DNA from: a virus
Length of the DNA stretch: 64,000 nt
Virus record (IMG/VR): IMGVR_UViG_3300033146_003848
Location: 62,001 to 126,000 of that record
Reading direction: 5' to 3' (one strand)
In this document: positions 36,335-60,832 of the stretch, in pieces
How the letters are laid out: each line of letters opens with the position of its first letter
How positions within the stretch are numbered: the stretch's first letter is position 1
Notes under the pieces: model-generated
Seen by the model: only the letters and a program-made list of their open reading frames with translations
The model's database searches: none
Told to the model about the DNA's origin: nothing
Position numbers and translations under genes: made by a program

Positions 36335-36346
36335 GTCAGACAAGAC
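36335..36346 (+). promoter_or_regulatory. conserved leader hairpin (GTC-AGACAA-GAC)
   Basis: One of eleven copies of the second leader hairpin, 11 bases before the CGGAG site of 36366. Confidence 0.7.
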
Positions 36347-36365
36347 GTTAAAATCGGAGAGTATT

Positions 36366-36662
36366 ATGGGATTTATAGTTAAACTTATCGATAAAGACAA
36401 TTCGATTCGAGAGGATGAATTTGCGACTGCGATTAAAGAACTGAAGCCTGAATTTAATAGTGATATTAAAGAAAAATCAGGAGTGTTCATTCATTTGGAC
36501 TCAAATGAAATTGAACTCAAGAATGGAGTAGTTAAAATATTTGGGTCATTTACTACTATGGGAGATGAGATTGAAGGACTAATTTTAAATTTACTTTTAA
36601 ATTTACAAAAGTTCGGATATAAAATAGAAGTTATTTGCCCAGAATTAGGGTATGAGAGTTAG
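36366..36662 (+). CDS. small protein, unknown
   Basis: 98 residues, alpha/beta; the KNGVVKIFGSF segment resembles KNGKVKIKGNF in the next gene, so the pair may share a small domain. CGGAGAGTATT site behind a two-hairpin leader. Confidence 0.65.
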   Translation: MGFIVKLIDKDNSIREDEFATAIKELKPEFNSDIKEKSGVFIHLDSNEIELKNGVVKIFGSFTTMGDEIEGLILNLLLNLQKFGYKIEVICPELGYES

Positions 36663-36672
36663 ATTATTAAAC

Positions 36673-36698
36673 TGAGGACTTCAATAATGAAGTCCTCA
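36673..36698 (+). terminator. hairpin between 36366 and 36718 genes
   Basis: TGAGGACTTC-aataat-GAAGTCCTCA, perfect 10-bp stem without a U-tract; more likely an RNA stabiliser or attenuator than a full terminator. The GAGGACT core recurs in the terminator at 49076. Confidence 0.5.
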
Positions 36699-36717
36699 AC
36701 AACGTAAGGAGATTATT

Positions 36718-37344
36718 ATGAGTATGAGTGACACAAAACAAAAATTAAATTTTTTATTAGACAATTTAGAGTTGGCAGATTATTTTGGTTCAAGAGATGT
36801 GGATAGAGTGTATGGTGCGGTATATAAAAAACTAATTCAAAATGGAGTATTAGTTAATAATTTAAGATTTACTCAAGGGAAAAATGTTTTACCTTTTGAA
36901 ATTGATAAAACTGAAAGTATAAAGGACAATATTACTAGAATTAAAACATATCTTCTTAGTAAGGTTGATAATTCAGAAAGGAGACTACGAGAGTGGACAG
37001 CATTCCATACAATCTATAGTTGGAGATACATTAAAGTGTCCAATCTTTCTCGTCTCAAAAATGGAAAAGTGAAAATCAAAGGTAACTTTGATGCGGCAAA
37101 TGATTTAATTGAGATTTTAGGCTATATCCAAAGTGATGAGATACCAAAAGACTTAGGGTTTTCATATGGTGTATTAGACTATGCTAGAAAGCAAAATGTC
37201 CCTTTAGATACTCATGCGGTAGATGTTATTCATTTTACAGTATCATATAAAAGAGGCTCATTTGAAATAACAGGAATGGATGATGCTCAAGTTCAACAAT
37301 TAAAGGATATTCTTTCTAATAATGAGATACAAATGATGAGGTAA
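36718..37344 (+). CDS. unknown protein
   Basis: 208 residues. Helical N-terminal half with RRLREWTAFHTIYSWRYI, then a beta-rich part (KVKIKGNFDAANDLIEILG; FTVSYKRGSFEITGMDD). AAGGAGATTATT site. Expressed from 36259 through a hairpin. No family recognised. Confidence 0.65.
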   Translation: MSMSDTKQKLNFLLDNLELADYFGSRDVDRVYGAVYKKLIQNGVLVNNLRFTQGKNVLPFEIDKTESIKDNITRIKTYLLSKVDNSERRLREWTAFHTIYSWRYIKVSNLSRLKNGKVKIKGNFDAANDLIEILGYIQSDEIPKDLGFSYGVLDYARKQNVPLDTHAVDVIHFTVSYKRGSFEITGMDDAQVQQLKDILSNNEIQMMR

Positions 37345-37349
37345 TTATC

Positions 37350-37589
37350 ATGAAAGAGTATTATGAATTGGTTGACAATCAAACTATTTCTTCGAATAAG
37401 AGGTTTATTAAATGTATTTGTTCTGAATGGCATCCAATCGTTCGGAATAATATGAGACGACTTACAGTCACTTGCCCGTTCTTTGGAATAATTGGAACGG
37501 GCAAAACAAATGGAGATTTAAAACGATCTTGGAGAAAAAATAGTGAGTTGTGGATAAAAAATGAACTTTTAGTTGAGGAGGGATTGTGA
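37350..37589 (+). CDS. small protein with internal hairpin
   Basis: 79 residues, Cys and aromatic rich (KCICSEWHP; TCPFFGIIGTGK). A 10-bp perfect stem (37472-37504) lies inside the frame. Weak start context (GAGGTAATTATC). Unknown function. Confidence 0.6.
   Translation: MKEYYELVDNQTISSNKRFIKCICSEWHPIVRNNMRRLTVTCPFFGIIGTGKTNGDLKRSWRKNSELWIKNELLVEEGL
37472..37504 (+). promoter_or_regulatory. intragenic GC-rich hairpin
   Basis: TTGCCCGTTC, 13-base loop, GAACGGGCAA. Unusually GC-rich for this genome and inside a coding frame. Confidence 0.5.
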
Positions 37590-37591
37590 TT

Positions 37592-37876
37592 ATGAAAAAA
37601 CAATGTTTAATGAATAAAGAAGAGGTTGTTCATTTTGAAAGTGAAGGACGAGATCATATTTATTTCAATTTGGAATCTTGGGAAGTTTTAAGTCAATTGA
37701 CAAAGTATCATTGGCAACATAAGATGTTAGAAGAACCATTAAGAGAATTTTGTAAACAATTGTTCCCACATTTGGAAATATTTCAAGTAAAGGTTCAAGA
37801 AACATATTTTGTTAAAATGAATCAATTAGGGCGAGGTACATTATTTATAACAATAAATCCACAAGATGAGGATTAA
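37592..37876 (+). CDS. small protein, unknown
   Basis: 94 residues from ATG 37592 (GTG 37586 also possible) after GAGGAGGGA. Helical, His/Trp-rich (LTKYHWQHKMLEE). Overlaps the next gene by 11 bases. Confidence 0.6.
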   Translation: MKKQCLMNKEEVVHFESEGRDHIYFNLESWEVLSQLTKYHWQHKMLEEPLREFCKQLFPHLEIFQVKVQETYFVKMNQLGRGTLFITINPQDED

Positions 37877-59431: not shown

Positions 59432-59462
59432 AAAAAGTAGTTGCTATTCGCAACTACTTTTT
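59432..59462 (-). terminator. intrinsic terminator of cassette gene 5
   Basis: AAAAAGTAGTTGC-tattc-GCAACTACTTTTT; the distal U-tract on the minus strand is five long. Confidence 0.85.
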
Positions 59463-59482
59463 GTCAAAATCTTGGAATTATA

Positions 59483-59953
59483 TTATTTTTTTAACATATC
59501 TAATCGTTTCAATTCAGATTCGATTTTATCAAACTCATCATTCGAAAATTTTCCGTTTCTGATAATATACTCGAGATCGTTTACATAAAAATTGTACTCA
59601 ACAGCAAGTTCAAAACTATGCATAGTAAAAAAATACTTTTTTGTTTCAATCATTTTTTCACTCATTTCATCAATTCCATTATTGTCGAGCATATGAAATA
59701 ACATTTCTTCATTATCTATATCTTTTGATATAGACATTAAAATAATTATAAACTCGCATTTTTTGGAATACGAAATTCCTTCATAATTATTATCATTTAA
59801 TTCAAAGATTTTATAAACATCATTATCATATTCTTTAATGAAAGAATCATGAAACAGTGCATATGGAATATCAATATTAAAGATATTGCACTTTTCACAA
59901 ACTGTCTCTTTTGTTGTTGTTGTTGTTGTTGTTGTTGTTGTTGATTTTTTCAT
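59483..59953 (-). CDS. cassette gene 5 with poly-Thr tract
   Basis: 156 residues from ATG 59953. MKKS, then ten Thr encoded by an ACA/ACN trinucleotide run, then KETVCEKCNIF. The body is acidic and helical and distantly matches cassette gene 2. The GTT/AAC microsatellite could change length in frame. No own promoter is visible; a leader hairpin is present, so it may be reached by read-through from cassette gene 6. Confidence 0.65.
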   Translation of the reverse strand: MKKSTTTTTTTTTTKETVCEKCNIFNIDIPYALFHDSFIKEYDNDVYKIFELNDNNYEGISYSKKCEFIIILMSISKDIDNEEMLFHMLDNNGIDEMSEKMIETKKYFFTMHSFELAVEYNFYVNDLEYIIRNGKFSNDEFDKIESELKRLDMLKK

Positions 59954-59974
59954 GATAATTTTCCTGTTTTTAAA

Positions 59975-59986
59975 GTCTATACTGAC
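59975..59986 (-). promoter_or_regulatory. conserved leader hairpin (GTC-AGTATA-GAC)
   Basis: Second leader hairpin before cassette gene 5, kept although no promoter core is visible. Confidence 0.65.
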
Positions 59987-60031
59987 TATTAGTTTTAAAA
60001 AGAAACTGTTTTAAACTATTTTAAAACAGTT

Positions 60032-60104
60032 TAAAAAACAACTTGCAAGACTTTGAAGTCTTGCAAGTTTCAAGTAATTCTATAGTTGCACTATAGAATT
60101 ACTT
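60032..60104 (-). terminator. double hairpin ending cassette gene 6
   Basis: First a 14-bp stem AAGTAATTCTATAG/CTATAGAATTACTT (60072-60104) spanning the stop codon, then AACTTGCAAGACTT-ca-AAGTCTTGCAAGTT (60040-60069) followed by a U-tract. Very strong. A further AAACTGTTTT...AAAACAGTTT stem (60004-60032) follows. Confidence 0.8.
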
Positions 60105-60799
60105 CGATTAAGCAAGATCATTATGTCGTTTACTCTTGATGTTGCATTTTTTCCTTTTCTTATCTTAGTGTATAAGACATTTTTAAGAGTTCGGAACGCA
60201 AAAGAATTTGCATTATTTTTCTGATTTTTAGCAAAGTTATGAATTATAACAATACTATTTTTCGATAAATTTGCAACTGAAAAAATTCCAGATTCAGAAA
60301 GTGTAAATTTCAGATTCATATTGTTTGTTTTTATAATGTCTTGACTTTCTGCTAAAATTTCACTTTTCATAACTGAAGCAATAAGTATAGTACTTGCATA
60401 AACATAATTTAAGCACTTTTCTTTATAATTCAATAAATTTGCAGTTTTTTCGACTTTAAACTTTTTTCCATTTTGCATCGTGATAACTAATTTTCCAGTG
60501 ATAAAATCTGAATTATTTTTTATATCATGTTTTGTGCAAAATTTTTCCGACATAAAGTACTTTTCAAAATTCTTTACTGCATACAGTGACTTGAAACTTA
60601 AATTTTCTAAAAGTTTATATCGTTTTGTAGAATTCAAATTATCAAAAAATTGAGAAACTTTTTTCTTTTCAAGTTCAACTTCTTTGATTTTTTCGTCATT
60701 TTTTTTTTCAGTTTCTAAATTTGCAAGATAACTTGTTCTTTCTTTATCTGACAAATTAAGATTAAAATTGTTGTTTGATTTTTCTGTTAAATTTTTCAT
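60080..60799 (-). CDS. cassette gene 6, Lys/Asn-rich protein
   Basis: 239 residues from ATG 60799 (TTAGGAAAATTTT). Charged helical N-terminal 60 residues (KKNDEKIKEVELEKKKVSQF), then alpha/beta; VITMQNGKKFKVEKTANLL and RTLKNVLYTKIRKGKNAT are basic. Extreme AT content (codons AAA, AAT, TTT) compared with the window. Function unknown. Confidence 0.7.
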   Translation of the reverse strand: MKNLTEKSNNNFNLNLSDKERTSYLANLETEKKNDEKIKEVELEKKKVSQFFDNLNSTKRYKLLENLSFKSLYAVKNFEKYFMSEKFCTKHDIKNNSDFITGKLVITMQNGKKFKVEKTANLLNYKEKCLNYVYASTILIASVMKSEILAESQDIIKTNNMNLKFTLSESGIFSVANLSKNSIVIIHNFAKNQKNNANSFAFRTLKNVLYTKIRKGKNATSRVNDIMILLNRSNSIVQL

Positions 60800-60819
60800 A
60801 AAATTTTCCTAATTTTTAA

Positions 60820-60832
60820 GTCTTATTTTGAC
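60820..60832 (-). promoter_or_regulatory. leader hairpin variant (GTC-AAAATAA-GAC)
   Basis: Seven-base loop instead of six; the outer AGTC/GACT pairs are kept. Confidence 0.55.

Follow-up and report, generated by a model that had tools for sequence, protein, structure and literature searches.

A box in the mRNA leaders of ten phage genes and a covarying hairpin before phage scaffold genes

A short hairpin-like box, GTC-AGNNNA-GAC, recurs in the leaders of ten genes in a 64,000-nucleotide (nt) stretch of viral DNA (positions 62,001 to 126,000 of IMG/VR record IMGVR_UViG_3300033146_003848; hereafter the window), always next to the ribosome-binding site. A hairpin of similar plan with a covarying stem precedes scaffold genes of other phages, and a covariance model of that hairpin finds nine of the window boxes. 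We put at about even the chance that the box is a small translational operator hairpin in the mRNA leader, shared here by a multi-gene regulon and employed in tandem for scaffold genes elsewhere. The scaffold-leader element, a covarying, tandem and scaffold-specific hairpin family, is a more solid product of this analysis than the window regulon.

The box in the window leaders

An original prediction, made from the letters of the window, had placed the motif before eleven genes. Ten exact matches to GTCAGNNNAGAC lie where it had placed them, against 0.18 expected from dinucleotide shuffles; the eleventh site is degenerate, with a loop of 7 nt that lacks the G. The boxes, with two examples of the sequences upstream of them, are as follows.

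36335..36346, plus strand: box GTC-AGACAA-GAC, exact pattern, leader of open reading frame (ORF) 36366-36662
44309..44320, plus strand: box GTC-AGAAAA-GAC, exact pattern, matched by covariance model R1 (below), leader of ORF 44340-44585
48376..48387, plus strand: box GTC-AGAAAA-GAC, exact pattern, R1 match, leader of ORF 48407-49057
53804..53815, minus strand: box GTC-AGAGAA-GAC, exact pattern, best R1 match (23.6 bits), leader of ORF 53584-53784
54478..54489, minus strand: box GTC-AGTAAA-GAC, exact pattern, R1 match, leader of ORF 54243-54458
55381..55392, minus strand: box GTC-AGTAGA-GAC, exact pattern, R1 match, leader of ORF 55088-55360
56395..56406, minus strand: box GTC-AGTACA-GAC, exact pattern, R1 match, leader of ORF 55915-56373
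57607..57618, minus strand: box GTC-AGTACA-GAC, exact pattern, R1 match, leader of ORF 57184-57585
58747..58758, minus strand: box GTC-AGTAGA-GAC, exact pattern, R1 match, leader of ORF 58387-58725
59975..59986, minus strand: box GTC-AGTATA-GAC, exact pattern, R1 match, leader of ORF 59483-59953
60820..60832, minus strand: degenerate box GTC-AAAATAA-GAC behind a different 5' hairpin, CTGTATAACAATATCGTTATACAG, leader of ORF 60080-60799
36259..36287, plus strand: example of a promoter, extended -10 sigma70-type, TTGACACGG..TGTTATACT, followed by 5' hairpin TATAAACAATTGATTTTGTTTGTA
53817..53891, minus strand: example of a full upstream leader (53804 box), with promoter TTGACTTGG..TGTTATACT, 5' hairpin ATAAACAATCGATATTGATTGTTTGT and a T/A-rich spacer

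As had been predicted, each box sits between a 5' hairpin and the Shine-Dalgarno sequence; all are in sense orientation, with 31-36 nt from the start of the box to the ATG. A search of the whole 146,140-base record for further copies, as the original prediction had proposed, returned only the known boxes when one mismatch was allowed. A structural descriptor (stem, AGNNNA, TAANA, Shine-Dalgarno sequence and start codon), applied to nearly the whole record (all but contig bases 60001-62000), recovered the ten boxes and one coding match, against a mean of 2.2 in shuffled sequence. The putative stem is 3-5 bp long, GUC/GAC and often lengthened by A-U pairs. Conservation of both sequence and loop had been claimed; it holds for the stem and for loop positions A1, G2 and A6, whilst the middle three bases vary, leaving the loop half conserved. 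Similarly, the conserved frame around the motif proved approximate: its tail, TTTAAAAnnnGGA, reads TATAACATCGGA at 44309 and 48376 and GTTAAAATCGGA at 36335. Two types of tail can be distinguished, TAAAATCGGAG (or TAACATCGGAG) before ACTATTATG-like starts at 36335, 44309, 48376, 53804 and 54478, and TTTAAAAACAGGAAAA at the boxes from 55381 to 59975.

About two dozen strong promoters (TTGAC..TG-TATA-T) are present in the phage, each directly upstream of a hairpin. One type of 5' hairpin (AAACAATYGATATTGATTGTTT-like) is common to nine of the eleven box leaders; at 59975 and 60820 the box follows entirely different hairpins, and the former leader also lacks the usual promoter and 5' stem. The box is a module separable from the 5' hairpin, because it is absent from about 15 similar promoter-plus-hairpin leaders of the phage and present behind these two different hairpins. 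These leaders without the box, with strong promoters (TTGAC..TGTTATACT) and a 5' hairpin of varying sequence directly behind each, lie between window positions 29749 and 52495.

The boxes lie no more than about 80 bp from the strong promoters upstream of them, which would also suit a DNA operator, or another transcription-level site in an early transcribed region. This we consider very improbable, as the distance and orientation to the start codon are nearly fixed, the usual promoter is missing at 59975 and compensatory changes in the relatives described below preserve the pairing of one strand.

A tandem gene array occupies 54-60 kb of the window, in units of about 1.0-1.2 kb with repeated intergenic DNA and repeated terminators, and five box leaders (55381-59975) fall within it; its non-coding repeats show 60-97% similarity over stretches of at least 100 nt. 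The proteins behind the boxes had been described as unrelated, which is correct in part: two pairs are paralogous, those of ORFs 55088/57184 (38% identity over 99 amino acids, expectation value (E) 2e-15) and 55915/59483 (26% identity, E 1e-8). Scans of ten of the eleven box-gene proteins (all but the 66-amino-acid one behind 53804) gave no convincing Pfam or PHROG family. The possibility arises that the boxes are a passive remnant of one leader copied many times, conserved only for as long as the copies are young, a view to which the repeats of the array, the 5' hairpin type shared by most leaders and the paralogous proteins all lend weight. Tandem duplication does account, in part, for the copy number, amounting to about half of the boxes. 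It does not easily explain why boxes also lie on the opposite strand or why two leaders have foreign hairpins. Since boxes are spread on both strands over 24 kb whilst the sequence outside the leaders has diverged, since they persist behind two unrelated 5' hairpins and since a model from other phages recognises them, duplication as the full explanation, which the original prediction had itself named as a way to fail, appears rather unlikely.

Within the array, a 29-nt intergenic unit around CCCAAATAGGACGGTACAGAG occurs in nine copies between 54995 and 59355, with tandem periods of 49, 73 and 81, and the same terminator-like hairpin, AGTAGTTGCGAATAGCAACTACTTTTT, ends four array genes (55868-59516). 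ORF 59483-59953 has a poly-threonine tract at its start, encoded by an eleven-copy triplet repeat at 59911-59943.

Tandem hairpins in scaffold leaders

Scanning viral contigs for exact matches to the window frame, GTCAGNNNAGACNNTAAAANNNGG, returned 11 loci, about the number expected by chance. In two of these (L018 and L021) the match immediately precedes a scaffold-like gene; L021 carries three tandem copies. The L018 gene is located between portal and Mu-F-like genes and the gene for a major capsid protein E, and its product weakly matches a head-scaffold PHROG. The genes for homologues of the two proteins have leaders with two or three hairpins in which the stem changes and the loop is constant: GUC/GAC, GAC/GUC, GUGC/GCAC, CGCU/AGCG, GGCGG/CCGCC, GCGGG/CCCGC and other stems enclose AG[A/G]GAA and are followed by UAAA.CGC. 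The common plan is a 3-6 bp stem with, mostly, an AG[A/G]GAA hexaloop, then one or two bases, UAAAA and CG, in one to three tandem copies before scaffold genes.

Covariation was assessed on 13 aligned copies from scaffold leaders, most of which had been found by protein homology. Each of the five stem pairs has changes on both sides and 92% of cells are paired; covariation scores 0.88, compared with 0.21 after shuffling and at most 0.18 when the alignment is slid. A scaffold-type pattern, GTCAGRGAAGACNNTAAWNCG, then matched 85 viral stretches, nearly all immediately before a scaffold-like gene of 180-240 amino acids, and a profile of the proteins behind these stretches recognises the homology-found scaffold set. 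Sixty-five distinct leaders (among L244-L322) hold 164 hairpin copies, compared with 3.1 in shuffles, and 50 of the 164 have a stem other than GUC/GAC. In the scaffold copies loop positions G4 (96%) and A5 (100%) are nearly fixed, partly by construction of the search. A less biased count, of all hexaloops in these leaders, gives AGAGAA 93 times, AGGGAA 31, GGAGAU eight and AGUGAA four. Tandem AG[A/G]GAA hairpins directly before scaffold-like genes were also noted in L204, L207, L227, L228, L231, L233 and L234, in addition to L244-L322.

The element is also found in prophages. Among 196 genomes of one bacterial family (that of an Oscillospiraceae genome), for each of which a limited number of candidates was scored, the three best matches lie in prophage leaders of the scaffold type, two of which immediately precede a scaffold-like gene, the third, with two copies of the element, being on the reverse strand; the remaining matches look coding or random.

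Its nearest neighbour among known RNAs is GP20-b (RF03003), a cis-regulatory leader of phage GP20-type structural genes in which UAAAA and CG come after every small hairpin. L217, a true member of that family (39.6 bits; gathering threshold 36.2 bits), precedes a related gene and has the same hairpin-UAAAA-CG plan. The three-copy leader of L021 scores a weak 20.3 bits with GP20-b, below threshold, and in 12 loci with AG[A/G]GAA scaffold leaders Rfam searches at threshold gave no GP20-b match and left the element unnamed. It is therefore probably a new RNA family beside GP20-b. No Rfam family matches the window at its gathering threshold, and GP20-b was absent from a permissive search of 53.3-61.1 kb. 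Unlike GP20-b, the window boxes occur as single copies before non-scaffold genes; family and profile scans of the window genes found no scaffold gene behind a box, so the boxes do not have the location expected of GP20-b.

Probable relationship of the two elements and proposed mode of action

Covariance model R1 was built from seven homology-found scaffold-leader copies, excluding all window sequences and the two phages found by pattern. In 144 kb of the window phage it gave ten matches at E values up to 5, nine of which are boxes, whilst its best score in a control of 400 kb from two other large phages was 14.7 bits. The strongest match is the 53804 box (E 0.003), whose loop is identical to the scaffold-leader consensus. 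The two elements have in common a preference for a GUC/GAC stem, loop bases A1, G2 and A6, a two-base gap, UAAAA and a place before the ribosome-binding site; they differ at loop positions 4 and 5 and in copy number, with a single box in each window leader and one to three tandem copies before scaffold genes. A leader found in L364 and L365, GTC-AGTAAA-GAC-GT-TAAAATC, combines the window-type loop (AGUAAA) with a location some 70 nt upstream of the start of a gene that weakly matches a head-scaffold family (phrog_206). On this sequence comparison, the window box is likely to be related to the scaffold-leader element, and the covarying relative whose model picks out the boxes supports their hairpin nature. 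The relationship falls short of proof because the starting point of the search was a pattern taken from the window itself, and because the ten boxes do not count as independent cases.

In the proposed mechanism, a weak 3-5 bp hairpin would present an A-G-N-N-N-A hexaloop, followed about two bases later by UAAAA and then by the Shine-Dalgarno sequence. A putative trans-acting RNA-binding factor, most likely phage-encoded, would recognise the stem, the ends of the loop and UAAAA and, bound beside the Shine-Dalgarno sequence, would alter and most likely block ribosome loading, such that some ten strongly transcribed genes may be turned down together. What we infer here is that the box acts at the RNA level in the window, that a protein binds it and which way the effect runs. 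A translational operator stabilised by a protein fits because a weak hairpin with fixed loop ends stands beside the Shine-Dalgarno sequence in many leaders, and because pairing is preserved by compensatory changes in the relatives. The regulon proposed in the original prediction thus gains a separable box adjacent to the ribosome-binding site and a covarying relative elsewhere, and is weakened by the points that follow.

A number of observations weigh against a translational operator in the window. The GTC/GAC stem is invariant there and provides no covariation, the hairpins taken in isolation have low stability (-1.9 to -3.4 kcal/mol) and, for some whole leaders, the lowest-energy fold leaves the box hairpin out. 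About half of the copies are attributable to duplication, as described above, and the ten boxes are not independent. R1 reaches E values of 0.3-5 on the other single boxes, only 53804 falling below 0.01, and the window loops have G4 in one of ten and A5 in five of ten, compared with near fixation in scaffold loops. The resemblance to scaffold leaders is in part selected, since the link was first drawn from a very large collection by matching a pattern. Moreover, scans of about 90 window proteins recognised no RNA-binding regulator or domain, and no recognisable scaffold-protein homologue was found in the window phage. One candidate for the latter, the product of window ORF 18266-18919, was rejected: its weak blastp match to a scaffold protein (E 0.002) came without profile or PHROG support, and looks like similarity between coiled coils.

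Four other explanations of the box were considered which, in falling order of our confidence, are a cis-acting enhancer, the passive duplication remnant, a processing site and the DNA site, the second and last having been dealt with above. As a cis-acting enhancer of translation or ribosome standby site, the small hairpin and A-rich stretch would keep the start open and recruit ribosomes with no dedicated protein, an arrangement that would be well matched to early and scaffold proteins made in large amounts. Strong promoters and good Shine-Dalgarno sequences point the same way, window and scaffold leaders alike conserve UAAAA, and a need for high output is plausible for the genes behind the element. 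However, the scaffold-leader loop is nearly fixed whilst the stem varies, which fits specific recognition better, and across 477 kb from 40 scaffold-phage loci, matches to the model occur only at the scaffold leader and never before the capsid gene; we regard an enhancer as unlikely.

The third explanation takes the box for a signal of mRNA processing or stability, with an endonuclease inactivating early mRNAs at the hairpin and UAAAA. There is a precedent in the T4 nuclease RegB, which shuts off early mRNAs at the Shine-Dalgarno sequence GGAG (consensus GGAGRAYARAA) (PMC3014915), and the boxes do lie at the Shine-Dalgarno sequences of many genes, with GGAG present in five of their leaders. 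Unlike RegB sites, the five other exact-box leaders read AGGAAAA and, like that of 60820, contain no GGAG; no such nuclease was recognised in the same protein scan, and tandem copies before scaffold genes would be unexpected of a cleavage site. A processing signal is thus quite improbable.

Since about ten window genes share single copies of the box, the factor acting on a translational operator would be a general regulator, resembling T4 RegA in its effect and the gp43 operator in its site. The likeness to the RegA regulon is that a single phage factor acts on many early mRNAs, in each case at the ribosome-binding site. The sites of RegA overlap the AUG and are A/U-rich, unstructured and poorly conserved (PMC3014915), whereas the window box is hairpin-like, conserved and upstream of the Shine-Dalgarno sequence. 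The gp43 operator of T4 and RB69 is, like the box, a hairpin with a conserved loop upstream of the start, at a distance of about 40 nt, and the bound region reaches the ribosome-binding site (PMC3014915). It serves one target gene and has the loop UAAC, in contrast to the ten targets and AGNNNA loop of the box.

The use of one to three copies solely before scaffold genes in other phages suggests, by analogy, feedback by a scaffold or head-assembly protein, which would be the natural guess for these tandem leaders. Phage scaffolding protein is under autogenous control in systems of the P22 type. Post-transcriptional regulation of that kind would explain hairpins specific to scaffold leaders; the protein, RNA site and phages are unrelated to those of P22 as far as tested. 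The broader proposal, that one type of RNA operator (an AG..A hexaloop hairpin with UAAAA) serves scaffold genes, in tandem and probably under autogenous control, in many Firmicutes-type phages and prophages as well as a ten-gene regulon in an unrelated phage with a T4-like polymerase, is put forward tentatively, with less than even confidence. Were it true, a shared or exchanged RNA-binding factor would be implied. Phages other than T4 have yielded few known RNA regulons, and a compact operator that recurs ahead of scaffold genes in dozens of uncultured phages, and ahead of an entire set of genes in one more, would constitute a directly testable RNA site with a short list of candidate binders, namely the scaffold proteins themselves. 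The scaffold-leader element may also hint at a mechanism by which phages in general adjust scaffold dosage.

Other searches and neighbouring features

The window phage is AT-rich (31% guanine plus cytosine) and encodes a T4-like DNA polymerase with about 32% identity to cyanophage gp43, together with topoisomerase subunits, PhoH, RtcB, an RNA ligase, a helicase and sigma-factor domains. Close relatives of this phage did not turn up, and a protein search with its topoisomerase found no relatives. Forty-four loci reached via a YfaP-type protein were rejected as kin, the five most fully compared sharing almost no other window genes; the box is at chance level in 22 records of these phages, which are therefore uninformative on its conservation.

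Further searches for the box were also made. Promoter plus box gave 16 matches in viral contigs, which look coding or due to chance. A host regulon is not supported, the window-frame pattern having 79 matches in 85,000 bacterial species, mostly in open frames, against about 120 that we estimate from base composition. A literature search for the hairpin element found nothing. Window-type AGUANA boxes occur in 57 viral stretches, mostly in repeated coding or unrelated contexts, with one before a scaffold-like gene; a few intergenic ones stand at the head of tRNA arrays. In six loci (L329, L337, L342, L344, L359 and L380), GTCAGTAAAGAC-NN-TAAAATC lies near the start of a phage tRNA array, the tRNAs being confirmed in all except L342. 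Two of the six also contain a ROOL RNA, and L380 has two tandem copies of the motif. Slightly more than 100 nt downstream of a GTCAGTAAAGAC site in L017, a match resembling the Type III hammerhead ribozyme was noted at 941-997 (minus strand; 46.4 bits, threshold 48.5). Finally, beyond the last box of the window, a 37-bp tandem repeat (CTGATGGATCTCATCCAGGATCCAGGGAATATTTTGG) is present in 5.1 copies at 61478-61664 and is apparently non-coding.

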